IMG/VR virus record: IMGVR_UViG_3300017708_001883
Span: 1-46,451 of that record
From: a virus
DNA: 46,451 bases
Direction: 5' to 3' (one strand)
The notes beneath the pieces are model-generated. The model saw only the letters and a program-made list of their open reading frames with translations. It was not told where the DNA came from and searched no databases. This document shows positions 12,701-33,100 of the stretch, piece after piece. Position 1 is the first letter of the stretch. Each line of letters begins with the position of its first letter. The position numbers and the translations under genes were made by a program.

Positions 12701-14196
12701 CTAGCACCACTAGAAGATCCAACTACTAAAGATCCTGCAGAAATATCAACACTAGATGCAAGTTCTAAAATAGTAAACATTTGAACATCAAAGACGTTCA
12801 ATCTATACTTATCGTCAGCATTACCATACTCATTGTCAGCACCATCATCTATGTGCTCTAGGGTAGCACCACGAGCATATCCGATAATATCTCCAGCAGA
12901 AGTTCCAGGAGAAGAAGTAAATGTATCACGAAGTTCTAAAGTTTGGTATGCACTTCCAACAGTAGAACCAGATGTATTAAGGAAACCATAGAGATTTTCA
13001 ACATTTGAGAAGTTACCCATCTCAAATGGAATAATAACGTTCTGTGCAGAATCAGTATCTCTGGGTTTATCTAAATCGATATACGCTGGTGCTAATTTCT
13101 TAACTCTATATCCCTTGACATAAGCAACACCAGGACCAAACTCTACAGCATACTTATCCTCAGAAGCAATGTTACCGCTTTGAGTTGTTGCACCAGATTT
13201 ATATACACCGTTATTAAAGTTGTTATCCAATCCTTGACGAACTTTAATTCCAAAATCTTTTACAACATAATTACCAGATTCTTCAAATGTCCTAAGAGCA
13301 ATACTCTTTTCCAGTTCATCGTATGCACTTCGGTCAACAATCTTTTCTACCTTAGAATTGTTAATACGCAACAATTCAATAAAGTTTTTATCTGCATCAT
13401 CCGTCAGAAGTTTCTTGATAAGTCTGGTAGTGATTCTAAATCTATGAGCACCAGGTGCAGCATAGTTAGATGTTCCAGCAGCGTTATCGTTGAGACTAAG
13501 GTCATCTTCTGGAGTGATGATCGATTCTTGAATGTCGAGACCAACACGATAGGAGGGGTTGCTTCCATACTGATCAAGAAGAATATATTGATAATCTACA
13601 TCAACAAAGAAACCTCTGATGAAGTACACACCGCTCTGAACATATGCAACAGAACCAATTTGTAGAGCAGAAGTAGGAAGTAACTGAGCAAAAGGAGAAC
13701 CAATCTCAATCAGAGTTGTACCGAAAGTAATCTCACTATCGGTAACTAACTGCTCATTATTTTGAAATGTTTGCTGAGTATTTTGTTCACCACCAGATTC
13801 AATGTACTTAACATATAATGTAATATAACCCTTATCAGATTCTGTAGAAGAAATACTATAGAGAACCTTTGCCTTAACACCTGTGGTAAGACCTTCGATG
13901 ATCTTACCTGACAATTGACTTCTATACAGTTCAATATCTGCACCCAAGAATGATTCTTGAAGCATGATGGCATCAACTTCTGTATCATATCCCACTTGAC
14001 CTGGGATAACCATTGCACCATCTTTGAACAAGTGAGAACCTACATTCTCAATCTGGTTCTGTATAATACTTTGAGACGTTGTTAATTCCCTCGCCTGAAT
14101 AGGGAAACCAGGACGAAACAATACTCGATAAAAGTTTTTCGCCTTATCGAAATCATCGTAATAAGGTGTGACGTTAAGATTGGTATTTTGTGTCAT
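6724..14196 (-). CDS. DUF4815-containing giant virion structural protein
   Basis: A 2490-residue protein. Residues 10-75 contain 'YYDDFDKAKNFYRVLFRPGF' and 'QARELTTSQSIIQNQIENVG', the hallmark of the DUF4815 family of phage structural proteins. The middle holds beta-rich modules, one with a 'VITVTDAQLGGGGGANLTFD'-like glycine segment. Two 'GETITGGTSG' elements lie near residues 1980-2050. A further conserved-looking block contains 'TSVDVYFFTKDSAIPISMQI' and 'EYQIWISRMGDIDITGDRTI'. It sits where T4 carries genes 9-10-11, between gp8 and the distal fibre genes. It is therefore a likely peripheral baseplate or fibre-attachment protein, though I see no direct similarity to gp9 or gp10. Its ATG overlaps the gp8 stop (TAATG), pointing to coupled translation from the gp8 late promoter. 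Confidence 0.85.
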   Translation of the reverse strand: MTQNTNLNVTPYYDDFDKAKNFYRVLFRPGFPIQARELTTSQSIIQNQIENVGSHLFKDGAMVIPGQVGYDTEVDAIMLQESFLGADIELYRSQLSGKIIEGLTTGVKAKVLYSISSTESDKGYITLYVKYIESGGEQNTQQTFQNNEQLVTDSEITFGTTLIEIGSPFAQLLPTSALQIGSVAYVQSGVYFIRGFFVDVDYQYILLDQYGSNPSYRVGLDIQESIITPEDDLSLNDNAAGTSNYAAPGAHRFRITTRLIKKLLTDDADKNFIELLRINNSKVEKIVDRSAYDELEKSIALRTFEESGNYVVKDFGIKVRQGLDNNFNNGVYKSGATTQSGNIASEDKYAVEFGPGVAYVKGYRVKKLAPAYIDLDKPRDTDSAQNVIIPFEMGNFSNVENLYGFLNTSGSTVGSAYQTLELRDTFTSSPGTSAGDIIGYARGATLEHIDDGADNEYGNADDKYRLNVFDVQMFTILELASSVDISAGSLVVGSSSGARGYLVDAVSSDDHINLYQVEGTFSVNEMLTIDGVQLDTISALHTYQYSDTRQIVAKDETTTAVEFTADVILEDIQIVQGTTFTYSTTSADILTVDTVSAADGSRTEGTYLIGATDYTTDANGSGATFSIAVDNTGAATVTIIKGGFSYVVDETITVTDAQLGGGGGANLTFDVATVGATIKGLQSNFALDLRSGDQIYFSDTQFVTVDKVDQDNLTGTASTNIFEFANQIVKVDPGSASPSDGVYNAILRYRSKLFDVANADLISPMPKKYVKSISDESMIVRRTFDAQTVASNSISITLPENEQFQSISEENYVITVLAGTNSTHPVGDQITIDTTNTGVIGYSFFTSTDRTTLQIDNLTNVTSVKVTATISKNVTVRKTKSGNQMFVLKVNKTTKNIDKQNYNLTYSNIYGTRIEDRDLSLGLKDCYRMHAVYESFDENDPVLPSVTLVEPVFFETGSIVTGRTSKARAKVVDFNSGSLKLSLVYLDGGMTSGETIDGVDSNGDPITAIVNDSEGSVVNGSKVVTDNYFLELNQTGFIYDISKIVRKKGTSIPIRKLLVVADYYSHSSTGDYFGGQSYLNTNYDEIPFFGAKYLTDYLDFRPGVKNLFSGSGTVGSPAFVNCSTFDFKSRIFNTSGTPSATIFDIPKLNSNFRCDFDWYLPRTDKCFVTPSGEFQVVKGNSSERPESPDNLKDAMLLATISHKPYGFDPESDVVISRSDNKRYTMRDIGTIERRLNQVEYQTSLNMLEADTFNTQILDADGKNRLKNGFMVDDFTDHSKSDTGHEDFAAALDFQKGECHPAHYTTNVSLEINDNLSQNYQQTGPIITLPYTELAIINQPYASRVENINPFNVFTYIGRIVLTPGSDDWIETERLPANVTQIEGDFESVAAEMNVDQNGFVPIQWNSWTTTWKSEESIGSSTVHNPGWLQEDIGRSPRPDVWGGRGMRRINVVETFEVSGEQVRTGIRTQVVPRIEMESLGDALISTTVIPWIRSRNIELDVARLKPRTQVYSFFDGQNVSAYMTPKLIEIIKDPAVDTRTNSTPFVIGETVTGQTSGCVFKVAAPNDLFEFNPYTDEELPSSYASTTAYLSIDTEALAKQAVGDFYGNMQVGEVLIGTSGATAVVKDRRMITDRFGKMKTSFFIPTPKIDTNPRWSTGTRTLRLTTSDSDSRIAGAVASSAQVEYEARGTLNVVQENILAVRNAEIVQDTVNQEQTIQSTRTEVRQVGWYDPLAQSFIVDQDGGVFLTSVDVYFFTKDSAIPISMQIRTMENGYPTTTILPFSDITLEPSEVQLSETAAVATKFTFRAPVYIPQSQEHCFVLLSDSNEYQIWISRMGDIDITGDRTISEQPYAGVLFKSQNASTWTADQYEDIKFIINRAEFNNQVNSTLVLNNAALGLGNRGKLRLRNDAIESFLPELILTMNNTILPYTAGSRVYQKTTLAEATIKTVQTTTAGVLLTINDINGTWASGSESGGIVSNGIVSSKTLSTIVVTGRSGLFEVGETITGGTSGSTAEIVTFDAGTETLTLRYVSKTFSSGEQITGGTSNVTANLSTVTPPTYSGDAVLSSVIANAFPVSTPTYSSAQRKVRVNHSNHNMHDLSNNVVIEGIKSEVTDTFLTAAISASDTTVTVNDASAFHKIINGVAISSSNVGYIMINSEIMSYSAISSDNKTITVNERGLDGTTAVSHIDESAVKCYNFDGIPLIEINKTHEGILNPTLDSYELSTSSIARLGIRSGGNAIVATQNIQYDILVPQVERMLLSKTTLSARINTISGTSINDGSTLSQASFSNDGVFSDIILSKDNYLYQPALICSAINESSELSGAKSFRMDLTLGSETTNVSPIIDTDRMSITLVSNRINTPSDPNSAKLSVGDEHEAVYITRVASLTNPSGAIKLYFTGYRPSNTEIKVLYRTRPVGSTTPISQYGFEFFPTEDANIPLTTERRVYREYSYEVSGLNFDQYQIKVVFVSPNQSLTPIIRDIRAIALAV

Positions 14197-15728
14197 TAGA
14201 ATTCGATTACGATTTTGATGTCTTCTACTTGGTCGTTTGCACGACTAATTGCTCGTCTATTATCTATATAAACAACGTCACCGCTGTTTGACTTAATTTC
14301 AGGTTTCGCATATCCATTATTAAATTTCATACCTAAGTCATACTCAGTGTTATTGATAGTTCTGGAAGAAGAGTTTGGAACTGCAGGGAAGTTCACATCA
14401 GGTTGTCCAGCAGCACCAGAAGTGGCACCACTAATTACATTAGAACCGTCAAATTCATTTTGTGTACCAGTAACTTCAGGGAAGATACCGTCAATAGCAT
14501 TTTGATAATACTTCAGAACTTTAGTGGTAGGATTCCAAGAAATAACCCGACCACGAGCAGTAACATTCGTACCACCAACAACTCTTGTTTGAGTGACAAT
14601 TTCATCAGGTACATAGTTACCTTGAAATGTAGGAGAGAAAATAACTGCTTTTGTAGCAGAAACTGTCAAATCAGAAATAAGTTCTTCAGTACCAAATTTT
14701 AAAGGATTAGTAACTAAACCAATTCTACGATAATCGTTATCAACAGGGAAATCTCCAGCACCTTCATCATAAGAAAGTTTGGAGTTTACCATCACACGGA
14801 AAGCACCAAGTTCAATAACAGAATCAGCACCGTGACCGCCTGGAGGTGGGATTACTACATCAACTTCACCAGCAGTTCCAGTACCGATGCCTGTAATAGC
14901 GTCAGTACTAATTTTACCGAAGGTGTATCCAGTACCACCAGAAGTTACAGTTGCAGAAATAATTTTACCACCATCAACAACGATAGAAATACGACCGCCA
15001 GTACCGTCACCATTGATAGCGACATTATCGTAAGTACCATTATTGTAACCAGATCCAGCAGAATTGATTACAACTGTATCAATTTCACCAGCGACTGCGT
15101 TAGTCCTTACCGCATCATTTGTGAATACGGGCATATAATCGTTGGAGAAAAACTTGAGGACTGAAGCAACTGGAATAGTGTACATGTATTTCCAACGATA
15201 CCCATCACTAGTAGTAATGATGGAAGTGGAAGTACCAGTAGGTTCAATTGTAGAAGGTTTCCCGTTGGGATCAGAAGGAGAAGTTCCGTTAAAAATAACT
15301 TTATATACTTGATACTGAGAATTCACGACATAGAAGTCGGAATCATACAGTTTTGTAGCACCAGAAGAAGCAGTCTTACTTGGAGAATAGTCATTACGAT
15401 ACATATCGTAGGTAAAACCAAGTCCACCAGTAGTTTCTTCAGGAGAAACCCAATCAATGCGACGAACAACTTGAACAGTATCCGAAGCAAGAACTCTCTT
15501 CAGAGAGACCATATCATCGAAAGATCCAGAAAACTCTGAGAATGAATCTACTGCCTGGGGAGGAGAGTTCTCATTGTCCCAACTCTGAGGTCTACCAATG
15601 AACAAATAAAGGCGGTCACGAGACGACCCTGCGTCATCATCACTTTGCGTCGCGATCGGACCCTCTAGTGATTTGATGAATTTTCTCGCAGAAAAAATTC
15701 TAAATTGATCAGTAAGTAACGCTGCCAT
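14196..15728 (-). CDS. 8: gp8-like baseplate wedge protein
   Basis: A 510-residue protein. 'LYLFIGRPQSWDNENSPPQA' and the region around 'VVRRIDWVS' correspond to T4 gp8 'IYITFGRSEPW...' and 'VIPRRDWG'. 'DGYRWKYMYTIP' matches 'DGYVWEYLFEIP', and 'RRIGLVTNPLK' matches the T4 'RQISIITNPLE'. The C-terminus 'YIDNRRAISRANDQVEDIKI' matches T4 'YMENRPPIIMAMDQTEEINI'. These ordered matches make the call firm. T4 gp8 has 334 residues. The excess here is two insertions: about residues 215-300, a 'GSGY...GGTGY' beta module, and about 360-442, a 'GxxVTxARG' type module. In T4 gp8 dimers join gp7 and gp10 in the wedge. A late promoter box lies 28 bases upstream. AGGA lies immediately before the ATG. Confidence 0.93.
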   Translation of the reverse strand: MAALLTDQFRIFSARKFIKSLEGPIATQSDDDAGSSRDRLYLFIGRPQSWDNENSPPQAVDSFSEFSGSFDDMVSLKRVLASDTVQVVRRIDWVSPEETTGGLGFTYDMYRNDYSPSKTASSGATKLYDSDFYVVNSQYQVYKVIFNGTSPSDPNGKPSTIEPTGTSTSIITTSDGYRWKYMYTIPVASVLKFFSNDYMPVFTNDAVRTNAVAGEIDTVVINSAGSGYNNGTYDNVAINGDGTGGRISIVVDGGKIISATVTSGGTGYTFGKISTDAITGIGTGTAGEVDVVIPPPGGHGADSVIELGAFRVMVNSKLSYDEGAGDFPVDNDYRRIGLVTNPLKFGTEELISDLTVSATKAVIFSPTFQGNYVPDEIVTQTRVVGGTNVTARGRVISWNPTTKVLKYYQNAIDGIFPEVTGTQNEFDGSNVISGATSGAAGQPDVNFPAVPNSSSRTINNTEYDLGMKFNNGYAKPEIKSNSGDVVYIDNRRAISRANDQVEDIKIVIEF

Positions 15729-15767: not shown

Positions 15768-18700
15768 TTATGAACGAATACTAGAAGAGTAACTTACTCC
15801 CTTGATTCTATAAGATGCTCCAGCATTACCAACAGCATTTTCTCCACCAAGGATTGCTTGTATGACCGCACCAGAACCCGTAGTATCTCCTACCGCATTT
15901 GTAACTGTAATTATTGGGTGGAGGTTGTATGTCCCATCAATTGTTTGAGCAATACCATATCCACCATTGTTAATGGTGACAGAACTAATTTGATCATTAG
16001 CGGTAGTCATAACAGCAGTTCCAGTCGCTTGAATATCTCCTGTATTTTCAATTGATATAGTAGGAACAGCACTGTAGTTAGTACCAGCATCTTGAATGAT
16101 AAAATCAACAATAGTGCTGTTATATGAGTACTCATAAAGCAATCCAGCAACACCAACGTTAACATTACCAGTATTATACGGAGTAATGCTACTGAGAGTA
16201 AGCAACGAAGTAGTAGAATCCCAAGCAACAACAGTGCCAGTAATACCAGAAACAGAACCAGTTACAACTTCGTTCAAACTAAAGTTTTGACCATTAGAGG
16301 AGTTGGGATCTAACTGAAGATATACAAGTGCTGTATGATCAACACCTTCACTTAAACCTCCTGCTTCAACAACTGTAGCAAATAGTTGAGGAATACTTGC
16401 ATCTTTAATGTTATCACCAACTTGGAAAAGTGTGGTATTTTGTCCACCTTGAGTTTCTTCAATACCATACAAAGAACTGTATATACCACCATCTAAACTA
16501 ATTTGATTTTCAAATGCGGTTCCTGCATTAAACAAATCTGGAATACCATCTCCAATAACATTGCCCTCAGCATCTAAACCACCAATATTATCTTGTAGTT
16601 TTCTATCTTGTAAAGTGCTAATTGGAACAGTTAATGTAACAATAGTTTCTCCATCTTCAACTTCGATAATGTGAGGTAATGCTGCCGATCCTGTAGTATT
16701 TGCAACTCCAGCATCAAACTGAACGATTGCATCTTCAGTAGAAGCAATTCCTGCATCAATGAATGCCAGTTCATCAACTTCAAATGTAACTAAAAGTTCT
16801 CTGGTGTCAGGATCCCAGTCATATACTTTAGCAATCTTATTATTTTCATTCTCAATTCTACGAATTACTCGATCGTTAACATTGAATTTATATAAGGAAG
16901 ATCCTGTTTGATCATTTTGACCAGGATCCAAGATTACACGTTGATCATAGTTAAAATTAACACCTCTGGATAATCCAGTAAATCTATTTCTAGATCTTCC
17001 AGTATATGAAATAGTTTCATCATTAAGTATAAGTTCGCCAGATCCAGGGAATGCATCTGTAGATTGAACAAAAATCTCAATATCATCAGGTTCTACATCT
17101 TTAAGCAAACCTGTAATATAATTTGTAGTGGAGTTGAATGCTTGTCTAGATCTAGTTTTCCTCTTTAAGTTTACTAACTTAGTGAAGATAATATTTGGTG
17201 GAGAGGTATATCCTTCTCCAGGATCTGTTACATTAATAGCAGTAATTTCACCTTGACTAATCACGGCAGTAGCTTTTGCACCGATGCCACCGCCACCAGT
17301 AACAAGAATATAAGGAGGTTCCTGATAAAATTCTCCAGGATCAACAACAGATACAGTAGAAAGTTTACCTAAAGTATCAATCTCTGCAGCACCTTGAGCG
17401 CCGCCACCACCGCCACCTTCAAAGATAAGTGTAGGTGGAGTTGCATAACTACGACCCTCATTCAATAAAGACAGACCAGTCACAGTTTGTACAGTAGGTG
17501 TTCCTACAGCACCTGTACCCTGACCACCTAAAATATATGACTTTGCAGAACCAAAATAATTATCTCCAGTTCTGGTCATCTTAATATATGATACGGTTCC
17601 ATCAGTATTGAGAACAACATCACCTGCAGTTTCAGTTGGAAAATTGCTAGAAATATTTGGGACTACATTACCTTCAAATAAAGGAACGCCATAATATTTT
17701 GGTCCAATTACATATGGATATTGAGGTTCTCCCGATGACGTTTCTGCCATAAAATATGCATATGTGCCATTTGGATATTCTGGTGTTACACCAAACTTAC
17801 CATTGTATTCATCCAGAGTTGCTCCAGAAACACTAGTGTCATAGATATAGTCTTGTGTAAGATCACCAAGTTTATAACCCTGCTGGACAATTCTAATTCC
17901 TAAATCTGCAGTAGAATAACCAAATACATACAACAATCTAGGTGCATCGACAGGAACTTCAAAGCGAACTTCTCTCTGAGATGCAGCAACAAATCCAGAA
18001 ATATAATTAGTATAGGTTACTTCAGAACCATCCAGATAATATGAAACACCTTGACCAGAATATAGATTTGCTACATCCCCAATAATTGAAGGATCTGCAC
18101 CATGCCAACCATCATCAGTCGAAGAAATTAGGATTGCATTATTATCATTAGTAGAATCATCTTGATTAAAGATATAAGTCTTTCCTCTTAATAATTCTAA
18201 AAATTCTACAGACGAAGCATCGAATAAGTATTTTCCTGCAGAAACAGTAACTGCATAAGTTATTGTCGAAGCGGTAACAACTTCTTCCCTACCACCAGAT
18301 AATTCATTAGTAGTTCTTAATCTGTAAGAACTAACCATTCTACCGACAGTTCTATTTGTAGTATATCCATATGGACCATAAATTGGATATCCATCAAAAG
18401 ACATACCCAAAATCTTAGAGTGTCCATCTACATGTCTAGACTTATCGATCGTATTTAGATCATTTTCATCAGACTGATAATAATTCTCAGCATAATAATT
18501 ATTAACTATCTCTTCATTTTCAGTATTGCTACTAAGGATCATATATCCTTCATCACCTTCATATCCAGACATATATCTGTGATAAGCACAATGATAATAA
18601 ATTTTATTACTCTCATCAGCATTCATCACAAATATCGATTGATATTCATTTTCATAATCAGTAGATGGTGCTGCTGAAGACCCTGTACTGTTGTAATAAA

Positions 18701-19937
18701 GAGATCCTCCATTAAGAGTACCATCAGTTGTGGTACTCATACGTAATGGATGTCCCGCACCCAGCTGATTAGACGAATCTGTCTGATTGAAAATAATTAA
18801 ATAATTTCTTTTAACCTGTATATTTTCAGGTGCCAGATAATATTGACCAGGAACAAATGCTCCAAATTTTTCAGCGTATTGCCCAAACTCAATATAATAT
18901 ACATTTAAACTTCTAGGATCATCTGAGATAGTTACATTAAATCCATTAGATCCTAGTAAAACGTCTCCATCAGCAAATGTATTAGTTACATTTCTGAGAT
19001 AAAGTCTTGTAATTTGGTTTTGATCATTTCTTACAATTTTAGCAATCTCTCCAGAAGCATTGCCACCAATTTCATCAATTAATCTACCAATCTCAACACT
19101 ACCCAGTGTCTCATCAACATTAGTAACAAAAATTAAAATATTACCATATTCTACCTTTACATTCCATGTAAATTGTTCTAGTCCACCCCAATCAAAAACC
19201 CCATTCGCCAGAGAAAACTCATTGATGACATTTTTTGATTGATGATAATATATTCCCGCTTCAGTTACAGCGTCATATACATTTGCACTTTTTACGTAAT
19301 CATATTTTACACTATCAATAGAAAATCCAACAGGTGTATTCCCATCAGTTCCCCACTCTGGGGTATGAAGTAAGGTGCCGTTTGAAAAAATTCCTGTTAC
19401 TTTATCATTCTGTTCTGGTCTTGTTGAGGGATTGGGTACATCTTTCCCTCCTCTATAAATGAAAGTCTGATCGAATGTTCTATCTAGAATAGCATCAGAA
19501 CCACCTGGTTGCCTCTCTTCTAAGATATATTGAGATGGTTTAGGATGATTATCAGATACAATACTAAGTCGATCTGTAACGCCACTAAAAGTTCCTGCAG
19601 TTGTAGAATTTGGATGACTTTGCCAAATTCTATTGATATTAAAAGAATTAATAACGTTAGGAGTTTCCGATGTGGGAACAATTTGAAGTCTTAATGGATC
19701 GTACCCCTTCCCCCTATCAAGAACTCTGACGTGTATAATTCTTCCAGAATTAGCATCAACAATTGGATACAATAATGCTTCTCGTTCTGGCGTGCCACAA
19801 CCAGTGATAGTTAAACGTGGTGGATCTGCAGGATCATACCCACTTCCACCATTCGTAACTTTTACTGCACGAACACCGAAAACCTCATCGAAGATGGGCT
19901 CGATGACGGCACCAGATCCAGGAACAGTTCTTGCCAT
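15768..19937 (-). CDS. YHYH-domain virion protein with cupredoxin-like domains
   Basis: A 1389-residue accessory tail protein. Residues 20-90 hold 'GGSGY' and 'RGKGY' beta modules. Residues 366-470 form a plastocyanin-like domain with candidate copper ligands His396 ('AGHPLRM'), Cys450, His453 and Met456 ('YYHCAYHRYM'). A YHYH domain begins near 502 ('HSKILGMSFDGYPIYGPYGY') and resumes near 697-750 ('YNGKFGVTPEYPNGTYAYFM'). Between these parts, residues 567-686 form a second cupredoxin-like domain that has lost the ligands. Residues 800-915 carry glycine-rich 'GGGGIGAKA' modules, and the rest is beta-rich. The gene starts 3 bases after the TGA of the 406-aa gene, with AGG upstream, and so shares its late promoter. 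It lies between gp7 and gp8, suggesting a baseplate decoration. Whether copper is bound is untested. Confidence 0.8.
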   Translation of the reverse strand: MARTVPGSGAVIEPIFDEVFGVRAVKVTNGGSGYDPADPPRLTITGCGTPEREALLYPIVDANSGRIIHVRVLDRGKGYDPLRLQIVPTSETPNVINSFNINRIWQSHPNSTTAGTFSGVTDRLSIVSDNHPKPSQYILEERQPGGSDAILDRTFDQTFIYRGGKDVPNPSTRPEQNDKVTGIFSNGTLLHTPEWGTDGNTPVGFSIDSVKYDYVKSANVYDAVTEAGIYYHQSKNVINEFSLANGVFDWGGLEQFTWNVKVEYGNILIFVTNVDETLGSVEIGRLIDEIGGNASGEIAKIVRNDQNQITRLYLRNVTNTFADGDVLLGSNGFNVTISDDPRSLNVYYIEFGQYAEKFGAFVPGQYYLAPENIQVKRNYLIIFNQTDSSNQLGAGHPLRMSTTTDGTLNGGSLYYNSTGSSAAPSTDYENEYQSIFVMNADESNKIYYHCAYHRYMSGYEGDEGYMILSSNTENEEIVNNYYAENYYQSDENDLNTIDKSRHVDGHSKILGMSFDGYPIYGPYGYTTNRTVGRMVSSYRLRTTNELSGGREEVVTASTITYAVTVSAGKYLFDASSVEFLELLRGKTYIFNQDDSTNDNNAILISSTDDGWHGADPSIIGDVANLYSGQGVSYYLDGSEVTYTNYISGFVAASQREVRFEVPVDAPRLLYVFGYSTADLGIRIVQQGYKLGDLTQDYIYDTSVSGATLDEYNGKFGVTPEYPNGTYAYFMAETSSGEPQYPYVIGPKYYGVPLFEGNVVPNISSNFPTETAGDVVLNTDGTVSYIKMTRTGDNYFGSAKSYILGGQGTGAVGTPTVQTVTGLSLLNEGRSYATPPTLIFEGGGGGGAQGAAEIDTLGKLSTVSVVDPGEFYQEPPYILVTGGGGIGAKATAVISQGEITAINVTDPGEGYTSPPNIIFTKLVNLKRKTRSRQAFNSTTNYITGLLKDVEPDDIEIFVQSTDAFPGSGELILNDETISYTGRSRNRFTGLSRGVNFNYDQRVILDPGQNDQTGSSLYKFNVNDRVIRRIENENNKIAKVYDWDPDTRELLVTFEVDELAFIDAGIASTEDAIVQFDAGVANTTGSAALPHIIEVEDGETIVTLTVPISTLQDRKLQDNIGGLDAEGNVIGDGIPDLFNAGTAFENQISLDGGIYSSLYGIEETQGGQNTTLFQVGDNIKDASIPQLFATVVEAGGLSEGVDHTALVYLQLDPNSSNGQNFSLNEVVTGSVSGITGTVVAWDSTTSLLTLSSITPYNTGNVNVGVAGLLYEYSYNSTIVDFIIQDAGTNYSAVPTISIENTGDIQATGTAVMTTANDQISSVTINNGGYGIAQTIDGTYNLHPIITVTNAVGDTTGSGAVIQAILGGENAVGNAGASYRIKGVSYSSSIRS

Positions 19938-19940
19938 TTA

Positions 19941-21161
19941 TCAACCTAAAACGTTAATTGTGCCTTGCATTGAAGCGTGAATAGTACACTGGTAGTACAG
20001 TGTTGTGCTAGGAGAAAGAGTCATTGGAACTGTCCAATATAAAACTCCAGTAGAACTACCAGACTGACCCTCTGTATATGGAGTTCCAGCTAATCCCTGT
20101 GTACTTTGAATTCTGAAGGGGTGAGCACTTCCCGTATTATTATCAAATGCATATGTCATACCTCTCATGACATACAAAGTAGGATCATTCGCTCCCGAAG
20201 GAAATCCAGGTCCATTAAATACATAATCACTACTACCATTAGCACTGACCTCCCACCAAGTCATGGGACTACGAGTTACTATCCAATCACTGCCATTCCA
20301 ATATAAAGAATCACCTTGAGTGATGCCAGAAACATCAGTGTCGGTAAGAGCAGCAAGTGTTGTGGTCAGTGATCCATTAAAATCAACTGTTACCGTATCA
20401 CCAGATACAGAAGTTGTGATGTTAGTTCCACCAGCAATCGTCAATGTATCAGTTTGAGAATTTGCTGTTGTAGATCCCGTGTCACCAGTAATAGTTGCAA
20501 ACAAATTCAATGAAGAAATCCCTGCTAAATCATCACCAGGAACCCAATTTGTACCGTTCCACTTAAGAACTTGATTATTCGTAGGTGCAGCGGTTGTGGT
20601 ATCAACATCACTCAATAAATCGATACTAGAGTATTCTGTCAGTAACTTTGCTCTAGTATCACCAACACCACCTGCAGTGATGTTCATATTGACATATGGA
20701 TTATCATCACCATCTACGGTGAAGAAATATCCAGGATAAGTTGCTGATGCTGGTGCATTACTAACGGCAGTATACTCGTTTACATACTTTACTTGGGTGG
20801 GAAAATCAATTGTTCCACCACCATCAAATATTGATGTGGTACTACCATGAGTTACCCTAAAATCACCACTACCATTTGGATTGACAACGATATTAGCATT
20901 AGAGGAACTAATAATCTCATTACCATTAACATCCAATGAAGATGTTAATGTAGAGAGATCAGAAGGGGCAAAGGAAGATCCATTATATCTTAAAACCTGT
21001 CCTGTTCCTGCATTGCTCAATGACAATTGGGTATCCGAACCATTGCCAATAGCGGTATAAATTTCACTGAAATTATCATTAATTTTATCACCACCAACAC
21101 GGAGTGTATCACCCGTGTTGTCATTTGCGGCACTGCCAATACCAATAATTTGCTTAGACAT
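19941..21161 (-). CDS. Fibre-like protein with C-terminal plastocyanin-like (cupredoxin) domain
   Basis: A 406-residue protein. The N-terminus 'IGSAANDNTGDTLRVGGDKI' plus 'NDNFSEIYTAIG' is a common opening of phage fibre or structural proteins. Two 'QVLKWNGTNWVPGDDL'-type linker repeats follow (residues 55-68, 197-212, and again near 285-295), typical of trimeric fibres. Residues 302-406 form a compact domain: 'MRGMTYAFDNNTGSAHPFRI' and the C-terminal 'YYQCTIHASMQGTINVLG'. The spacing His347 ... Cys392-x2-His395-x2-Met398 is that of a type-1 copper site, as in plastocyanin and pseudoazurin. There is no signal peptide or membrane segment, so it is a virion component and not an electron carrier in the host lumen. 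The late promoter overlaps the stop of the upstream giant gene, 21 bases before this ATG. Confidence 0.82.
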   Translation of the reverse strand: MSKQIIGIGSAANDNTGDTLRVGGDKINDNFSEIYTAIGNGSDTQLSLSNAGTGQVLRYNGSSFAPSDLSTLTSSLDVNGNEIISSSNANIVVNPNGSGDFRVTHGSTTSIFDGGGTIDFPTQVKYVNEYTAVSNAPASATYPGYFFTVDGDDNPYVNMNITAGGVGDTRAKLLTEYSSIDLLSDVDTTTAAPTNNQVLKWNGTNWVPGDDLAGISSLNLFATITGDTGSTTANSQTDTLTIAGGTNITTSVSGDTVTVDFNGSLTTTLAALTDTDVSGITQGDSLYWNGSDWIVTRSPMTWWEVSANGSSDYVFNGPGFPSGANDPTLYVMRGMTYAFDNNTGSAHPFRIQSTQGLAGTPYTEGQSGSSTGVLYWTVPMTLSPSTTLYYQCTIHASMQGTINVLG

Positions 21162-21181: not shown

Positions 21182-21189
21182 TATTTATG
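21182..21189 (-). promoter_or_regulatory. T4-type late promoter box overlapping the gp7-like stop codon
   Basis: The minus strand reads CATAAATA, in which the TAA stop of the giant gp7-like gene is the TAA of the box. The ATG of the 406-aa gene is 21 bases downstream, leaving a leader of about 15 bases. Confidence 0.7.
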
Positions 21190-24100
21190 CAAGTATCTCG
21201 GGATCAATTAACTCCTCACCGTAATCGGCAAGGTTTGGTGCAGTCCAATCATCAGGTACGGATGTTTCAACATCAATTCCAGGATTTTCATATCCAGAAC
21301 CAGCATTATTGAGTTCAACACCAGCAACACCAACCAAAGCACGAATATTCGCGTCAAAACCAGAGATAGAATCAACACGAACTATTGGTCTAGATGTATA
21401 TCCAGAACCTCCTGATGTTACTGAAACTCTATCAATAAATCCAGAAACAAGATTTGATTGTCCGATGGCATTCTGCCCAAATACAGATCCCAAATAATCA
21501 AATGTAATTAATGAATTGGAAGATTCAATAACTGCGACTTCGCGATCCTCAGTTTCACCTTGAATATCAATAAAATCACCAGGTTCAATGGGAGGAACAA
21601 CTTCAGCAGCATCAACGTCTGCTTCAGAACCAACGTAAGAGAATGCGACAAAGGTCGATCCCACGCGAGGAATTTCAGAGAAGATAATTCTAGAACCAAC
21701 GATTTCAAAACCAATTCCAGGTTCCTGAATAACACCGTTGAGAGAAACGATGATATTGTTCTCAGGTCTAATCACACTAGATTGGACACCTTCTGTCAGC
21801 GTGAGCGAGTAGAAAACCTCGTTACGCTTAAGGTTGAAGGACTGACGTAAGGAGTCAAACTCGAAGGAGATATCATCCAGTTGTCTAAGTTTACCGACGT
21901 AGAACCCAGTGAAAGAAGCTCCAAGTTCAGGTGCCTCGGTAAATTGAATTTGATTGGAGAACGCTGTAAATGCGTTTGTTGCACCAGGAGGTTGCAGGAT
22001 ACCATTAACAAAGATGAGCAGGTGACCATCGGGATCTGGGAGGTACTGAGTGCCATTCTCAATACTGAGTTTGAAGTTGGTTTGAGTTCCATCAAATCCT
22101 CTGAAAGAACGCTTAACTCTTGCCTTCAGTTCTTCAATCTCAACAACAATTGATCTATAGTTGTTGACACTCTTAATAGAATCTTGTTTGGTAAAGTTTC
22201 CAACAACTTCAGTTAGATAAAGTCTTTGAAGCAATCCAACAGTCTTAATATCTTGAATTCTAGCAGAACCAGCACCAGCAACTTCTAATTTAGTTGTGAC
22301 TGTGGCAATACCAGCAATATCAAGTCCATCGGATAGTCCGAAATCACCAATAATATCACCACCAGAGAATGTGTCTTCAACTTCAGATACGTAGATAAAG
22401 TTATTATCTAAATCAACATCTGTGATATAACCATATACACTAGTGAGTTTTGTACCACCAACAATCTTATAAATCTTATTTCCAACGGTGAATACATTTG
22501 CATCTCCAGAATTAATGGTGATACCGTACTTGACATGACCTTCAGATGCAATTCTTTGACCAACAGAAGCGTCAAAACCAGCAAACTTATCAACATCAAG
22601 ATATTGTTGAGAAGAAGCAGGATAGACAACTGAGGTGCTCTCAAAAGATCCTTCTAAGCTTTCAGTATCTACAGTCAACTTACCACCAGTATTATCTGTT
22701 ACAGAAGCAACTGTTTTGATGAAACTTGTGGGACTTGCTGATGCAGTGCTGGTATAACCAATGAAAGGAATATCCTCTTCAAATTCACCCTGAAGATCAA
22801 TGATGTGAATTCTATCTTCAATAGCAGAAATTTGTGCAGTTGTAGAATTAGTAGCACCAACAAGAGTGTCAGTGATCACCCAAGGACCTGCGGTTATTTC
22901 AACATCGATATACTTAGCATTTTCATCTTCATAGAAACCATAAACCTTACCAGTAACCGAAGGAGCACCTTGTTTAGCGACAACTTCATTCATAGTGAAA
23001 GGTCCATCGGTAATATCACCATCAATAGTAAAACGTTGATATACTTTTACAATCTTACCTTCGTTTACAGAAACGCTTTCAATTTCAGCATATGCATCAG
23101 AGAAGTTACCGTAGATATAATCTGAGTTGAATACTCTAGAACTAATACCTACAGGGATATCTCTTGTTCCATATGTTTTAGTTTCTAACGTAATACCATT
23201 TGTTGTAGTAAACGTTCTATAGTGAGAATCTACTGCTAGTTGCTGTTCAATAATATTCAATCCATATCGGACAAGTGCTGCATAACTGTTTGCCGTATAA
23301 TTAGAAGCGGCTGCAGTATCATAATATCCATAGAAACTAGAAGTCAGAGAGGGACTATCAAGATCATTAGACAGAGCCTGGACCATAAATTGTCTTAATC
23401 TCTTAACTGCGAAAGTTTTGATATTATATTCGATATCAGAGTAGAAAACTTGTCCACCAACAGCACTGTAAGGATCAAGACCACCAGAATTAAGTTTAAT
23501 ACCCCAAGCATAATATCCATCTGTTCCATTACCTGTGAAGGACGATCCATTATTGGCAAAAATGCTACCTCTAAGAGTAGAGAAACCATATCCAAAACTT
23601 ATAGTAATGTATGCTCTAAACCATTCGTTACCAACAGGAACAGATCCATACTCATCAACTGTAATACCAGTACCCGCTACTCCTTGAGTGAAGATACTAC
23701 CAGCAGTGCCGTCAGTAAGGTTTAAGTTAAATAATACTCTACCTTCATTGCTACCAGGATCTAATGTGGCACGAAGTTGTATAGAAGTAATTTCATCTTT
23801 TTTGAAGAACCCAGAGAATGTATATGTTTGCAGAGACCCAGTAGGAGCACCAGTATCAAACGTCTCGCTTCCACTATCAAATTTAACTGTTCCAGAGTCT
23901 AATGTTTCGTATGCGGTCAACGAATAAGACCTGAAGATATTATGATCTCCACTTGAAGAATCAACTACAATTTTTTCTGCTGTAACTGTTTCATCTGGAG
24001 CAGGTGCTTGATTATCCAAGACACTAGTCCTAGTAGTAGACCAATTGACCCCTAATGCCTCTGGATTAGTCCAGAGATTAGTTCCAGCAATTTGACCCTG

Positions 24101-27100
24101 AATATTTGATGTAATACCTCTTGCAGTGGTCAAAATCTGAACATTTGAGGGGTTGGTAAACCAGTCAAAGGAAGAACTTACTCCACCAGAACTACTGAAT
24201 GCACTTGTTGCTGAAGCAGCAGCATTTCCGAAAGCAGTAACAGCAAAACCAACATTGCTATTATCTGTGATTGGATTGTCACCTTGGCAAGAAAGGAATA
24301 CTGTATTAGGAACATCATTGGCATCGAAAGGAATAGATGGTCTCACGAAGTTGTTAGTGTATACTGCCGTACCCTTCACAATTCTCAGATTAGAAATGAA
24401 ACCATCTGCATAGATATTTCCGCTCAAATTATTGCGACCAACCAAAAGGGTCATACTGCTATAGTAAGTTGCCCATCTTGCAGTTCCCTGCTCAACACCA
24501 TCAAGATACATCTTAGTCTGATTATACCCTGTTCCAGTTCTAACCAATGCAACATGATACCATCTATTAGCGGAAATTGAAGTATTGAAGTTCATGAAGG
24601 ATGAACCATTTCCACCCCAAAAACCAATATTTCCAGAACTAAAGTACCAGTTAAAGTTATCATTAGTAGAACCAGTGATTTGGAAGTTAGTATTATTACC
24701 GTTCCAATAAACCCATGCTTCAACAGTGATTGCATTACTACCGAAAGCAAAATCAGTATTACTGAAACCAGTCCGTAAGTAATCACCACTGCCATCAAAA
24801 GCAACTGATCCAGTTCCACCACCAGTGATAGTAGCAGTACCACCATTTGCACCTGTGAGCGTATCGCCAGCATCCCAAGCAGTGCCAGTGAATGCACCAA
24901 CATAAAGAATAGAATTTACAGTATTGTATTCAAGAACTGTTGCTGTTCCCGTTCCACTAGAAGTTACAACTTCACCAACTGTAAACGTGCCAGTTATATT
25001 TCTAAGAGAAACATTATATGCCGATTGGGTTGTAGAAGTATCAGTAGTGATAATATCATGAACAACGCTATCAGTTAATTCGTTGAGGAAGGGTTCGTAT
25101 ACCCAAGCATTAGAACCAAACTGAGCATTGATCTCACCTCTGATTTCTTCTCTATAATAATTTGCGTTAAACGCGATATTCTTAGTAGCACTTCTAGCAG
25201 CAGTAGAACCAGGAGATAATGTGCTTAAAATAAGATCAATCAAGGTGTTGTATCGAGTTACAACATTTTGAATATTAGAAGGAGTTTCACTGTCTCTGTA
25301 AGAAGCATTTGCACTAAATCTTAATGCATATTGATCTCCAGTAACAGATGTTCCTTGAGTATAGATATTATTTTCAATAGCAAGTTCACCAAACTCTTTC
25401 AGTTTTTCAACAGAAAAGAGGAATGGGAGTAATTCATCTTCAATAGTTAAGATTGCTAAGGAAGAATTCAAATATGCATCAATTTCAGTAAGTATACTAT
25501 TAGTACCACCAGTTTGCAAGTCAGAAATTGCAGCAATTAGGAATTTCTCCATATATGATGCATAATTTGAAGCATTGATAGTATATGCACTATATTGAAC
25601 ATTCTGAAGAATATATGTCAAATATTCGTTGGTAACACCATTGACTTCTGATGTGATAGCATCTCTATTGAAATATAGTCTATCAGCAGCAATATTATAA
25701 TCACTATCGGTTGGTGCGATGATATCGTTAAATGTATCAATAAGATTATCAATTGCAGTTTGAACATCAGCACATCCACCAGCATCATTAGTAATACCCC
25801 AATCACCAACAATGATATTGTCAGTATTGTCATAAGTAAGATCGCCATTGATTGCCTGCTTCATGTAATTGCCGAGGCGTGTATGAGCATAAGCAGACTG
25901 CCATACTTGAAGTCTAATATGGAGCAACTCTTGATTTGAACCTAAGTAGAACTTGGCAGTCTGAACTGTGTTTAAGTTACCGCCATAGCGAATATCCTTA
26001 ATTAATTCAGCAAGAATTAACGTAAGATCAGTCTTACAACGCTCAATACCATCATCAGATACACCATTTTCATTTCTTGGCATATCTTGATAAAGATCAG
26101 GATATCTTTGAAGAAGATCGTAAGAAGTTTTGTCAATGATAACAGCAGAGTTCGCCTCAATCAAATTCGCAGCATCATAGAATCTATCTCTACTCGAAGC
26201 ATCAACTCTATTTGAATACAGAACGTCTGTACTACCATCATGATATGTCGAAGCAAAAGATCTTTCAACATATGCATCGATAGTTCCACCAATGAATTCA
26301 TAAACAGGTTCGACCTTGGTTACTGTTCCTAAATGATCACCATCAACTGTTGCACTAGGAGAATTTGCTTCCGACAATGTATCAGTAAGAAGGTCGATCA
26401 AGTTATTAATTGTGGTATAAACATCAGCACAGTTACTGAGACTTGCTGAACCATTTTCGTAAATGTTAGTTGGATCTGTATTCAGGGTTTGAGTTAGTCC
26501 ATGATCACCTTGAATAGTCCAAGTAACATTAGTGATGATATATTGAAGCATCTCATCAACTTTATTATATGCCCAAATTGTTTCTGCAATTTCAGTTTCA
26601 ACATGATTGAGAGTTACTGGATTTACAGTTCTATCAACATAAAGTGCAGATGAATCCCACATGTGATTATTAGAACCATTGTGGAGGTCTTCAATAATAG
26701 AGTCTAGAATATCACGAATATCATCCTCACAATTCACATTACCACCAGGAATAGTTAAAGAAGGATACTGCTGAAGAAGTAGATAAACAGTTTCTTTAGC
26801 GATAAAGTCTTTGTTCAGTCTGATAGATTCTGCTGCATTATAAACTCTATGAGAGTTGCCAGTAAATCCAACAGGAGCACCAGAAACTCTAGAGGTTGCT
26901 AGGATAGCGTCATTATGGAACTCTTCACCATTGGTGAGAGATTCGACACCAGACCAATCTTCTGTATAAGTCTGAGCATCAGCACCATCAAAATGGAGGA
27001 GAAGTTTAGTATTGGCATCACCTTGGAATATGCCATTACGTGGTGTAAACACTGCGGTATAACGAGCAGTATTAGAAACTCGGACTTCATCGATATGACC

Positions 27101-30100
27101 ATTAAAATTATCTCCATCTGCTTCATTAGCACCAATGTTAATTGGTTGAGATGAACCATAATTATTAGTATCAGTATAATCAGTTCCAATTTGAGCACCA
27201 TCAAGGAACAATCTAGTTGTTGTGCCACTCTTAGCAACCGCAACATGATACCAAGTATCAACCACTAATGTACCACCAGTAATATGATCACTAGTAGCAG
27301 ACCCATAACGAAGTTCGGCACCTTCTAAGTAAATCTTAGGAGTAGTATCACTAGAATTTGAACGCAAATCAATGATGTATTGAGTTCCTGTAACTGATGT
27401 TGGACGAATCCAACACTCAAGTGTAAATGCATTCGTTCCAAATCCAAATTCAGTGGATCCAGCAAGAGAAACATGATCACCAGTGCCATCGAGTAACAGA
27501 GAAGAACTACTAAATTTCTTCTGTGCAGTATCTAATTGTGCATCAGCATTAAAGACTGCTGTATGATAATCTTGACCAGAATTTTTAACCCTACCAATCT
27601 TACCAAGATAAATTGTAGATCTTGCTTGATTATACCCAATAACTTCTGCTTTAGTATCTCTCGTCTTAATTACTTGACCAGCTGCAAAGAAACCTGTTCC
27701 TTGCTTTTGATCAAAAGTAAGTTTTCTGACGGTAATATCTTCTACAGGTAGGAATTCTGCAGTATTATTACCATATTCAATCTGATAATTACGAATATAC
27801 TCATCTTCCAGTAAAGGACCATTAGTTAAATTATCATAAGGAAGTACCAGATTACTGATAGGTTCTGTAGAGGGGAACTTAGAATCATATGCTAAGCTAT
27901 TGTCATCAAAATCGACAATAGATACCTGAGATTTAGAAATATCATCAAGAATGACATTGGGATATGTAGTGGAGGCAATTCTATTGAACAACAAACCAAA
28001 GAATGTAGATCCTTCGGAAATATTAACCTGACCGATGAATTCCTCAGTAACAGGATCTTGATATGTTGCGGTAGAGCTAACACGAGCAACTACCCCAGAT
28101 TGAGCACCAATGATAACATCATCAAGTTGAATATCAAATAGACCAGGAGTAGATTGATACGTTCCAGCAGTCTTACTAAGAGTTAATGTATTTGTAACTT
28201 GAATTTGAGTTCCATAAAGAGGAATGTTCTCTTGCTGAGGTACAATTGCTGTTTGTGACTGTCCTCTAGTGATTGTAAGGATAGTAGAATTTGTTCCTGT
28301 AGTTACAGTATTAACAAGGAAGATTTCAGAACCAAATTGATAGTTTTGACCAGCAACAAAAGTATCTGCAGGAACAGCAGCAGGGGCATTTGTAGTAGAT
28401 CCTACTGTAATAATCTCAACAGAAGTTGTGGCAGCACCGATGGAGTATCTAAGTTTGCCTAAAGGAGTTTCCTGCCCTCTTTCAAGGTTAATTTGCTCAA
28501 CGATTGCAGTATCATTGTCAAAATTAGTAATCTGCTCACCAAAGATGAACAAACCAAGATTATCTACACTAACTTGAGAATCATAAGTCGCAGCAAATCC
28601 TGTAGCACCAACAGTTACAAGTTCATTTGCAACAAATGCACCCTGGGTGATGAAACCTGAAATTGTTTGACCAGCAACTTTAGTTACCGTAAGGCGAGTA
28701 TTGCTAGTTGTACCAACCAACACATTACCAGCAGTAGGGAAGATACCGCTATTATTTGATACAGTTACAGTAATTGTATCAATCTGCTCAATAGTGATAT
28801 TTACATATTTTACACTAGCGGGAGGAGAAGGTGGTTCAGAGAAAACAATGGAGTCTCCTTGAAGTTCAAAAGAAGTATTAGGAGTTTGAACAACACCATT
28901 GAGAATAACCATCAATTGATCAGCACTCGCAACAACATTGTTACCACCAACTGTAATTGGGAACGAAATACGTTCTCCATCAAAGAGAGTTGAAATGTCA
29001 TCAAGACGCTGAACAACTGAAGTCAAGATGTTCTCTGAAGAAGTAAGTCTCTTTTGACGGAAAAGAACTTCGGTGTTATTGAATTCAGAATAAATGGGTT
29101 CAACTAATGCAAAACTTTGAATATTTGGTACAGTTGCTTCTCTTGCCAGTTCGACCGACTTAGTTAACTCAAAGAATGTTTGCTTGTTAGGAATTTGTCC
29201 ATATTCACCAAGACTTAATTCACCAAATACCTTAAAGGATGCAGGGTGAACATTTCTAAGAAGAAGTTCCTTCCACTCATTGATGGACACAGAAGAATTG
29301 ACTGCATAAGAGAAATCTTGATAATAATAGGAATCTTGTACTCTTTGGATGATTTCAGAAGGTTTGCCTACATCATCAATAAACTGACCTGTCGTATTAG
29401 TAATAGAACCAATCTCAAGAACACCTTTAGCAACATTAAGATCACTAATAGTACCAGAAGATTTAGAAATAACACCAGTGACTTGTTGACCTTCGATAAA
29501 TTCTCCAGTGTAATCAACAATCTTAAGAACTCTGGGTCCAATTTGCCAACCATTATTAGTGGACACATAACCAGTTGCGGTTGCAGTATCTAAAGCATCG
29601 CCTTGATAAACAAGTTCACCCTCTAAGAAGGTAGATGTAATAACATTAGCAGTTGCTGCACCACCAAAAGATTCTGTCAGTACAGATTGGCGACCAGTAC
29701 CAGCGTTTACAAACGTAATCGCATCACCAAGTTCTGCGTTAGCAGCGGTAATTGCCAACTTCATTTGATCAGGTTCAAGAGAGTTTGCAGTACCTGCAAT
29801 TGCAAAATATGTTGTAGAGGAGTTTAGTCTACCAAGAGCACCAGATGATAGAGGGAAGTCAGCACCGTCTCCAGTATCAGTAACAATAAGAGATACTTGA
29901 GAACCATTAGGAATACCATGTGGGAATGCAAACTGAAGCAGACCCAAATCGAGGTTAATAACATAGTTAAAGGAAGATCTCAGAGAAACTATAGGAGTAG
30001 AAGAATATCCAGATCCAGGATCTTTTACAATAATTTGATCCAATCGACCATTTCTAATAGTAGATTCTGCAATAGCGCCAGAACCGCCACCACCAGTGAT

Positions 30101-33100
30101 AACAACCGAAGGTGACTGAGAGTACCCAGAACCAGGATCGGTAACTGTGATGCTGTCCAGGATGCTAGTAGAGGTTAACTGAGCGTTGATTGGGAATGTA
30201 ATCTCAGGACGTAGTGTGTAGTCATGAGGATAATCATAACCAAAATTATTATTCTTAAGTTTCTTGATCTTACCAACACTATCTCCTGTAGTGAAGATAG
30301 AAGCACCTGTACCAAAAGCAGGAATAACAACTGTTAGTTCAGCACCAGAACCAGCTAATCCTGGTCCTAGAATACCTTGAACGGATTCAACATCGACAGT
30401 TGCTGTCGTATATCCTTTACCAGGAGAAGTGACTGTTACTGACTGAATTTGACCAGGAATATTATTTCCCTCATCGTCCGATCCATTAGCAACTGAGATA
30501 GAAACAAATCCACCTTCGCCATCACCAGAAATAGGAACACTATTATAAGTACCAACTGCATATTCTGTACCAGGTTCAACAATCTGAACTCTTTCGATTT
30601 GTCTAGTTGATGTGATGCTAGTAACAATTGGCAATCTTGTGTAGAATCCACCAGCATTAGTAATACGAATGTCGGAAATAGATCCTACTGCTCTTCTAGA
30701 ACTTGTACTATAAGATGTTTGACTAATTCCAGCATCACCTTCAGGTTCATCAATTAAGGGGAATTTGACGATATCAGCACCACGAGTAATTGTTGCACCT
30801 GCAAGAGAAGTAATTTCAAAAGTTCCTTGATATGGAGAACCAACTACATCTAGATAACTATTAGGATCAATTGGAGAATCCAAACCTGGTCTTGAAGGAT
30901 CGAAATAGTAGGAAATATTAGTAACAATATCTCTATCAACCTTTAACTTTACAGTAGGATTAGGTTGTCCCTCTCCAGTAACTCCAGGAATACCAACTCT
31001 TTCAATAGAGTTAAACGAGTATTCCAGTTTATACAGATTATCTTTAGAGAATGACAAATTGCCACCCACCATAGATGAGTGCCCAAGATCAAACACATAC
31101 TGATGCCCGTAATACATTTTAAGAACGGGAGATCTAACGAAGATACTGACAGACGAAGCAGAAGTTGCAGGACTGGTTATCGCTGCTTGTGGCAGTTTGT
31201 AAGTAAATTCTAGAGGACTTACTACAGTATCTACTGGGAAGGATCCATCATATTCATCATATACTACAGTATTAACTGTCTCAGAAGGATTACCATCAAC
31301 ATGGATCATTTCACCAGGAGACAGATAATGACTTGTGGAAGTGATTACATAAACCTGATCACTATTAGATACTGCAGTTGCCCTTAAAATCTTGCTGAGA
31401 TTTGCAATAAGAGTAATCTTCAAAACACCTGTTAATCCAGTGATTTGAATTGTAGAGTATGCAGCATTGAAACTTACATCACTTCCTGCTGGTTGAATGA
31501 CAGAACCAACAATAAAATTAGAAGATCCAGACACTTCATCAATTCTAATAGAGTAATCTGCACTCGTAAAAGGTTTGAACTTCGCAAAACTATCCAGATT
31601 ACCAGATCCTACGCTAACAGTTGCATCTAGATTATAATTATTAAGATCAATATCAAAAGTTCCTGGAGTGGTGTTAACTACTTGTGCAAAATTGAACGAT
31701 GCAATCTCATTAACATCATTTGGAATAGGACCAACAATGCCATAGCTGCTTTGCTCATTAAATTGCTCAGTAGAAAGTTCACCGACATTGAGATCATCCG
31801 ACCAAGCATTGTTATTGACTGCAAGATAAATTTTGTTATTTTCAGTATCTTTCTTTACAAGATAACCGCTGTTAACAAAACTACCACCATTATTCAATAC
31901 AACTTTAGAACCAATAGTAAAGTTAAATGACTGATTAATAGTGAGTTCTTGAATATTATCAATCTTAACTGTTGGTGTTACTTTGAAATAATACTTAGGT
32001 TTGACTACAGCACTAACACTAAGTTTTTGTGATCCAGGAGAAGGAACTGTTGCGGTTCTAGAACCCCAAACATCTCTATTATAAGTCAATGTCTCTGTAT
32101 TTTCAGACATTGTAGTAGTGGCATCATCAAAGTCGAGAGATTGAATGCCTGCAGTACCAAGTGCAAAACCATTCGACTGCATAGCAAGTGCAGATCCTGT
32201 TACAGGAGTGACCGCAGTTCTTACAAAACCAACATTAGTATTAGTTTGAAGACCCTTATCTCCCAGTCTAATTGCATCAGCATTCTTATCAACCTTTAAT
32301 CCCCAAGCAACATAATCAATATAATCATAACGATTTAGATTGGTTGTAAACCAAGCATCATCAGTCCAATCAAATGCCAATGCATAAGAAGCAGTGGGAG
32401 GAAGACTTAATACATCACTAGGAACTGTTGGTGTTAAAATTCTATTCCTAAGTCTTAAATTATCCAAATAATACTGACCTTGCTCATTGGAGCGGAAAGT
32501 GCCAGTACTACCATCTCTACCAGGAACATTACCAAAATAAAGATCTTTGTTTCCAAGAGATGTATTTGAAACTGTACCTGTAAATACTTGAATGCCGTTC
32601 ACGTATCCTGTGAAAACATTACCAGACTTGGTGAGTGCAATGAATTGCCAACTATCATCGGCATACATATTTGTCTGAGTTGACTGTAATGAACTACCAG
32701 CAGAATTTACACTAGTGGTATTATTAGTGACTACACACTCAAGATTACCATTGGCAATATCATAGTACATCCAGAGACCGCCAGTAGCGTCTGCAGCGTC
32801 GCCAATTGCGAATAAGGTCTGTTCGGTTTGACTATGAGTTTGAGAGTTTGCTGCGTCCTTATAGAGCATAAACTCAAGAGTCCAATTATCAGCAAGTTTT
32901 GTGCCAAGAGAAGCAGCAGTAAACTTGATCGCTGAATTTTCCCAGTTTGCAGGAGTTCCAACATCTTTAGCAAGTAATTTTGCTACACCATCGCCAGAAA
33001 TAACTAAAGCATCTGTGGCATCGTCGCCAATCAAAGTTGGAGTATAATTTTCAGTCTTATCAGTTGCATCTGTAGCAAATTCTAAGATAAATTCATTTCT

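Follow-up and report, generated by a model that had tools for sequence, protein, structure and literature searches.

The C-terminal domain of P0001, a 406-aa protein encoded among the baseplate genes of a T4-like cyanophage, appears to be a genuine cupredoxin that belongs to the amicyanin/plastocyanin superfamily. In our favored explanation, which we regard as fairly likely, this domain would hold a type-1 copper through His347, Cys392, His395 and Met398, a second site would lie in the product of the next gene, P0002, and the domain would serve as a structural module for docking or contact. The explanation is based on the predicted fold, homology, a ligand set that is conserved as a unit and the genomic context, and virions of this kind probably bear copper where they make contact with the host. 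The fold and the site are of known kinds, while virion baseplates that employ them, here in two adjacent genes, seem not to have been described; no account of a phage-tail cupredoxin emerged from a literature search, with most subscription journals outside its scope.

Genomic context of the gp9-like protein

The window, that is, the whole stretch of 46,451 nucleotides analyzed here from an IMG/VR virus record, covers a structural gene region. A run of genes on the minus strand encodes a gp6-like protein, a 6167-aa protein, P0001, the 1389-aa wedge protein P0002 and a gp8-like protein, as follows.

39693-41759, minus strand: gp6-like baseplate gene (Pfam and PHROG neighbor matches)
21185-39688, minus strand: gene of the 6167-aa protein
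19941..21161, minus strand: P0001, gp9-like baseplate wedge / tail-fiber connector, 406 aa (phrog_677)
20880..21155, minus strand: T4 gp9/gp10-like N-terminal domain of P0001, residues 3-94 (PF07880)
19944..20258, minus strand: predicted C-terminal cupredoxin domain of P0001, residues 302-406 (AlphaFold2, Foldseek, profiles)
15768..19937, minus strand: P0002, the next gene, 1389-aa baseplate wedge protein (phrog_708, full length)
14196-15728, minus strand: gp8-like baseplate gene

In addition, 1043-6196 encodes a protein of 1717 aa that carries an Mtd_N domain (N-terminal domain of the major tropism determinant).

P0001 is 98.5% identical to a protein of Synechococcus phage S-CAM8, and phrog_677 ('baseplate wedge tail fiber protein connector') spans its residues 1-405 with an E-value of 2.5e-191. 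At its N-terminus, residues 3-94 match PF07880 above the Pfam cut-off (E 1.4e-8), and T4 gp10 and gp9 were matched in the PDB by phmmer through the N-terminal part only. By these sequence matches, P0001 is a gp9-like baseplate wedge/tail-fiber connector of a T4-like cyanophage. An initial annotation of this DNA had placed a copper site at the tip of a phage fiber protein, fused to a fiber-type N-terminus in a structural operon; the fiber/baseplate-type N-terminus and the structural gene context are borne out by PF07880 and phrog_677, whereas the protein proves to be a gp9-like connector and the word 'tip' goes beyond these matches.

A predicted cupredoxin fold at the C-terminus of P0001

For residues 302-406, the Greek-key beta-sandwich fold of cupredoxins is a high-confidence prediction. 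The AlphaFold2 model of this region (30 rows) has a mean pLDDT of 96.8, and in a Foldseek search against the PDB known copper proteins, including rusticyanin, amicyanin, plastocyanin, AcoP, nitrite reductase and laccase, made up 49 of the 50 matches listed. The remaining match is factor VIII, whose A domains also have the cupredoxin fold. The best matches reached a probability of 1.00 and E-values from 2e-5 to 1e-3, with modest TM-scores of about 0.45-0.57 between the model and solved cupredoxins. These results support the interpretation of residues 302-406 as a cupredoxin in the initial annotation, in which the 406-aa open reading frame and the positions of His347, Cys392, His395 and Met398 were also correctly described.

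The P0001 sequence alone found no match in the PDB, and only profiles reached known cupredoxins. A 16-member viral profile matched Chlamydomonas plastocyanin (2plt, E=1.1e-4) and amicyanin (1.7e-3), and a broader 17-member profile matched a nitrite-reductase-fused cupredoxin (~1e-4) and amicyanin (1.1e-4). The NCBIfam amicyanin model TIGR02657 matched 8 of the 17 viral members (best E 1e-4), the P0001 domain itself being absent among the matches listed; in Pfam, its own match falls below the curated cut-off. Global alignment of the P0001 domain with amicyanin scored 61.5, compared with 18.5 +/- 6.4 for shuffled sequences, none of 2000 of which reached that score. Judged by profile matches in the PDB with E-values of about 1e-4, the P0001 domain is homologous to members of the cupredoxin superfamily. 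The distance from His to Cys is 45 residues, equal to that in 2plt, and optimal pairwise alignments matched the first His with the ligand His of plastocyanin for no more than 54 of the 152 members. The site had been called plastocyanin-like, which holds for the superfamily and for the His-to-Cys distance but not for the ligand loop, the spacing of which is that of amicyanin.

The ligand set and its conservation

The four proposed ligands of P0001 are located as follows.

20121..20123, minus strand: His347, proposed copper ligand (96.6%, top-conserved of the 85 columns assessed)
19986..19988, minus strand: Cys392, proposed copper ligand, the sole Cys of P0001
19977..19979, minus strand: His395, proposed copper ligand
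19968..19970, minus strand: Met398, proposed axial ligand (Met in 93% of 406 domains)

Besides its one Cys, P0001 contains three His residues (105, 347 and 395), two of them in the site, and a single Cys within the last 420 residues is found in 130 of 144 gp9-type proteins. An iterated profile search collected 406 distinct viral domains. One of the scans that fed this set had searched with the ligand loop itself, and counts built on that scan, including those of the 406-domain set, are thus biased towards ligand-bearing copies. Within this set His-Cys-His-Met was kept in 368 domains, and in 10 others Gln replaced Met with the other three ligands kept. Viral cupredoxins with Cys-x2-His-x2-Gln include L169 ORF +0, L150 ORF +1 and L265 ORF +1. 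All four ligand columns rank within the top six of the 85 for conservation, and the remaining two adjoin them. A less biased count comes from the first-scan loci that could not have been found by the ligand loop, in which the site was kept in 26 of 26. The type-1 ligands His, Cys and His, with Met or Gln, are thus present and conserved in the aligned viral domains, and the conservation of the ligands in homologues, named as a check in the initial annotation, is seen in both close and distant relatives.

Copies that depart from this pattern include the ligandless viral copy L003. Cys is absent in 26 of the 406 copies, none of which retains the second His. On a tree built with the ligand columns masked, there were only about four changes of Cys, so the joint loss of the two residues is not significant and may be taken as suggestive. 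As to the metal, Met is a poor zinc ligand, and Gln serves as the axial ligand in stellacyanin. That Met is retained here, and is replaced chiefly by Gln where it is not, therefore argues for copper over zinc at the site.

Additional cupredoxin-like domains in the adjacent wedge protein

The next gene, P0002, contains two further domains of this kind, which the initial annotation had not mentioned, and the third cupredoxin-like domain in the series interrupts a YHYH domain.

18528..18863, minus strand: second cupredoxin-like domain, at about residues 359-470 of P0002 (profile search of the window: E 2.6e-6, match 18564-18821)
18363-18398, minus strand: 'FDGYPIYGPYGY' part of the YHYH domain of P0002 (PF14240)
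17880..18275, minus strand: third cupredoxin-like domain, P0002 about residues 555-686 (weak profile matches within 17901-18251)
17739..17876, minus strand: C-terminal portion of the P0002 YHYH domain (PF14240 matched in two stretches, E 1e-15)

The putative ligands of the second domain are His396, Cys450, His453 and Met456. Counterparts of this protein were gathered only by their adjacency to a gp9-type gene, regardless of their own sequence, and all four ligands were present in 99 of 100 distinct ones (one of the 99 read by eye); the exception reads HCHS. The model of the second domain has pLDDT values mostly of 80-90. In the third domain, the modeled strands have pLDDT values mostly of 75-96, and no Cys-x2-His-x2-Met was found in the alignment; from the alignment and the model, it is a cupredoxin-like domain that has lost its copper ligands. 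A 420-residue model of P0002 reached a pLDDT of 71.9 overall, good for the cupredoxin regions only, and its Foldseek result was mixed.

The ligandless third domain is inserted between the two YHYH stretches of P0002 (17739-18398), while the 6167-aa protein carries an uninterrupted YHYH domain (35108-35623, Pfam E 1.2e-31). The YHYH domain has been predicted elsewhere to be a zinc-dependent tail-associated hydrolase (PMC7824862).

The ligandless copies, i.e., the third domain of P0002 and L003, keep the fold family, which implies that the fold does not need metal. It could be supposed on this ground that the viral domains are cupredoxin folds without functional copper, whose ligand residues are retained for folding alone or bind a different metal, for instance zinc. 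However, all four ligands including Met are specifically retained over a large divergence, with Gln as the main alternative, and the second His is lost whenever Cys is lost; we consider a copper-free role unlikely.

Distribution among viruses

By tblastn, the gp9 domain of P0001 was found in 340 phage records, nearly all of marine cyanophages, and the P0002 cupredoxin domain in 217 phage records. More distant copies occur in tail fiber proteins of Pelagibacter and Methylophilales phages and of other cyanophages, and relatives at the level of the fold include proximal tail fiber proteins, S8- and S74-peptidase proteins and giant-virus 'beta-sandwich' proteins. Judging from these sequence and model comparisons, the cupredoxin domain family is widespread in tail proteins of marine phages, a spread that the initial annotation had not noticed. 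The 'beta-sandwich proteins' of Pithovirus and Marseillevirus (BFVD A0A481Z6J5, A0A481YWX9 and others) share the fold with TM-scores of about 0.63-0.69. A gp9 domain with 67% identity was also found on a contig binned as Rhodopirellula (L364; single-sequence scan, one contig found), which is probably cyanophage DNA within that bin.

Cyanophages do carry petE genes of their own, as the initial annotation had noted, and one relative of the P0001 domain is annotated as PetE, so the recent fusion of a host-derived free plastocyanin gene to a fiber protein was considered as a source of the domain. However, petE forms a gene cluster (T4-GC 225) separate from that of the gp9-like gene (T4-GC 398), the ligand loop is of the amicyanin type, and the domain is found in hundreds of phages with great divergence and with relatives in non-cyanophages. 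On these grounds a recent petE fusion was rejected, and we give it almost no credence.

The relative in question, a protein of Synechococcus phage S-SCSM2R annotated 'PetE' (L001:5794-6300), carries the cupredoxin domain, and over its first 38 residues it shares 82% identity with S-SSM7 gp9. Both genes lie after a gene with an S8-peptidase domain. This identity and the shared neighbor indicate that the S-SCSM2R 'PetE' is a gp9-like virion protein and not a plastocyanin. Cupredoxin domains of tail proteins can thus be mistaken for photosynthesis genes in virus surveys and, with one case found here, could inflate counts of petE in viromes.

Possible roles of the proposed baseplate copper site

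Most likely, the P0001 domain would act as a small, rigid beta-sandwich module for docking or contact at the fiber-bearing edge of the baseplate, and bound copper would lock the loops of ligands at one end of the domain. Because P0001 lacks a signal peptide and is synthesized in the cytoplasm, where copper is scarce, the site would probably be loaded with copper after lysis. Copper occupancy, the position in the virion, the structural or contact role and this late filling are the parts of the explanation that reach beyond fold and homology. Should copper indeed occupy these sites, the infection apparatus of T4-like cyanophage virions would incorporate type-1 copper. Phage assembly or adsorption would then be tied to copper, a scarce and toxic trace metal in the sea, and a possible reason why cyanophages adsorb in a light-dependent manner would become simply testable.

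A more active part for the metal can also be envisaged, in which copper in the baseplate would exchange electrons with the surface of a photosynthesizing host, or sense the redox state of that surface, and in this way adjust adsorption or the triggering of the baseplate. Sites with His-Cys-His-Met are of the kind used for electron transfer, and the set was kept here and not swapped for a simpler structural one. Several cyanomyoviruses adsorb in a light-dependent manner (PMC2984593), and model fits on the light-dependent adsorption of P-HM2 were reported (PMC7112961), which offers a hint in the same direction, but light dependence may have many causes. Moreover, no redox partner is known, and related domains also turn up in phages whose hosts, Pelagibacter and Methylophilales, do not carry out oxygenic photosynthesis, which argues against a special link to photosynthesis. 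We regard such a redox-active site as quite unlikely. The broader proposition, that the baseplates of marine phages carry working redox-active copper centers, one per gp9 and one per neighboring wedge protein, which react to the surface or the photosynthetic state of the host and act in adsorption or the triggering of infection, is slightly more doubtful still.

By analogy with what was proposed for the iron of tail fibers, the copper-loaded domain might instead work as a metal Trojan horse that docks on a copper-uptake receptor of the host. T4 gp9 bears the long tail fibers, and iron sites in tail fibers and a related hypothesis have been published. However, the connector of T4 does not form the tip that binds the receptor, and type-1 copper, in contrast to siderophore cargo, is shielded and bound tightly; this possibility appears very improbable to us.

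Comparison with known systems

The structural copper module that we favor for P0001 resembles amicyanin (TIGR02657, PDB 1aac and 1sf3) in its cupredoxin fold and in a Cys-x2-His-x2-Met loop of equal spacing, and among curated families amicyanin is the best represented and also ranks with the top PDB profile matches of the viral domains. The two differ in sequence, with about 20-26% identity, and in the distance from His to Cys, which is 45 residues in P0001 and 39 in amicyanin. Moreover, amicyanin is a secreted, periplasmic, single-domain electron carrier for methylamine dehydrogenase, whereas the P0001 domain is fused C-terminally in a phage baseplate protein. With plastocyanin and cyanophage PetE, the viral domain shares the superfamily (profile E 1e-4) and the His-to-Cys distance of 2plt, but plastocyanin is a soluble lumenal carrier with the loop Cys-x2-His-x4-Met, in contrast to the shorter loop of the fused P0001 domain.

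Among phage proteins, T4 gp9 and gp10 share with P0001 the N-terminal domain and the place among baseplate wedge genes; their matches are limited to the N-terminal part of P0001, and no T4 match to the cupredoxin domain was seen. The HxH iron sites of gp37-type tail fibers of T4 are similar in that a metal is built into a phage tail protein, which for P0001 is putative. However, gp37-type fibers hold octahedral iron through paired His residues, whereas P0001 and P0002 would each have one predicted copper-type site inside a folded domain.
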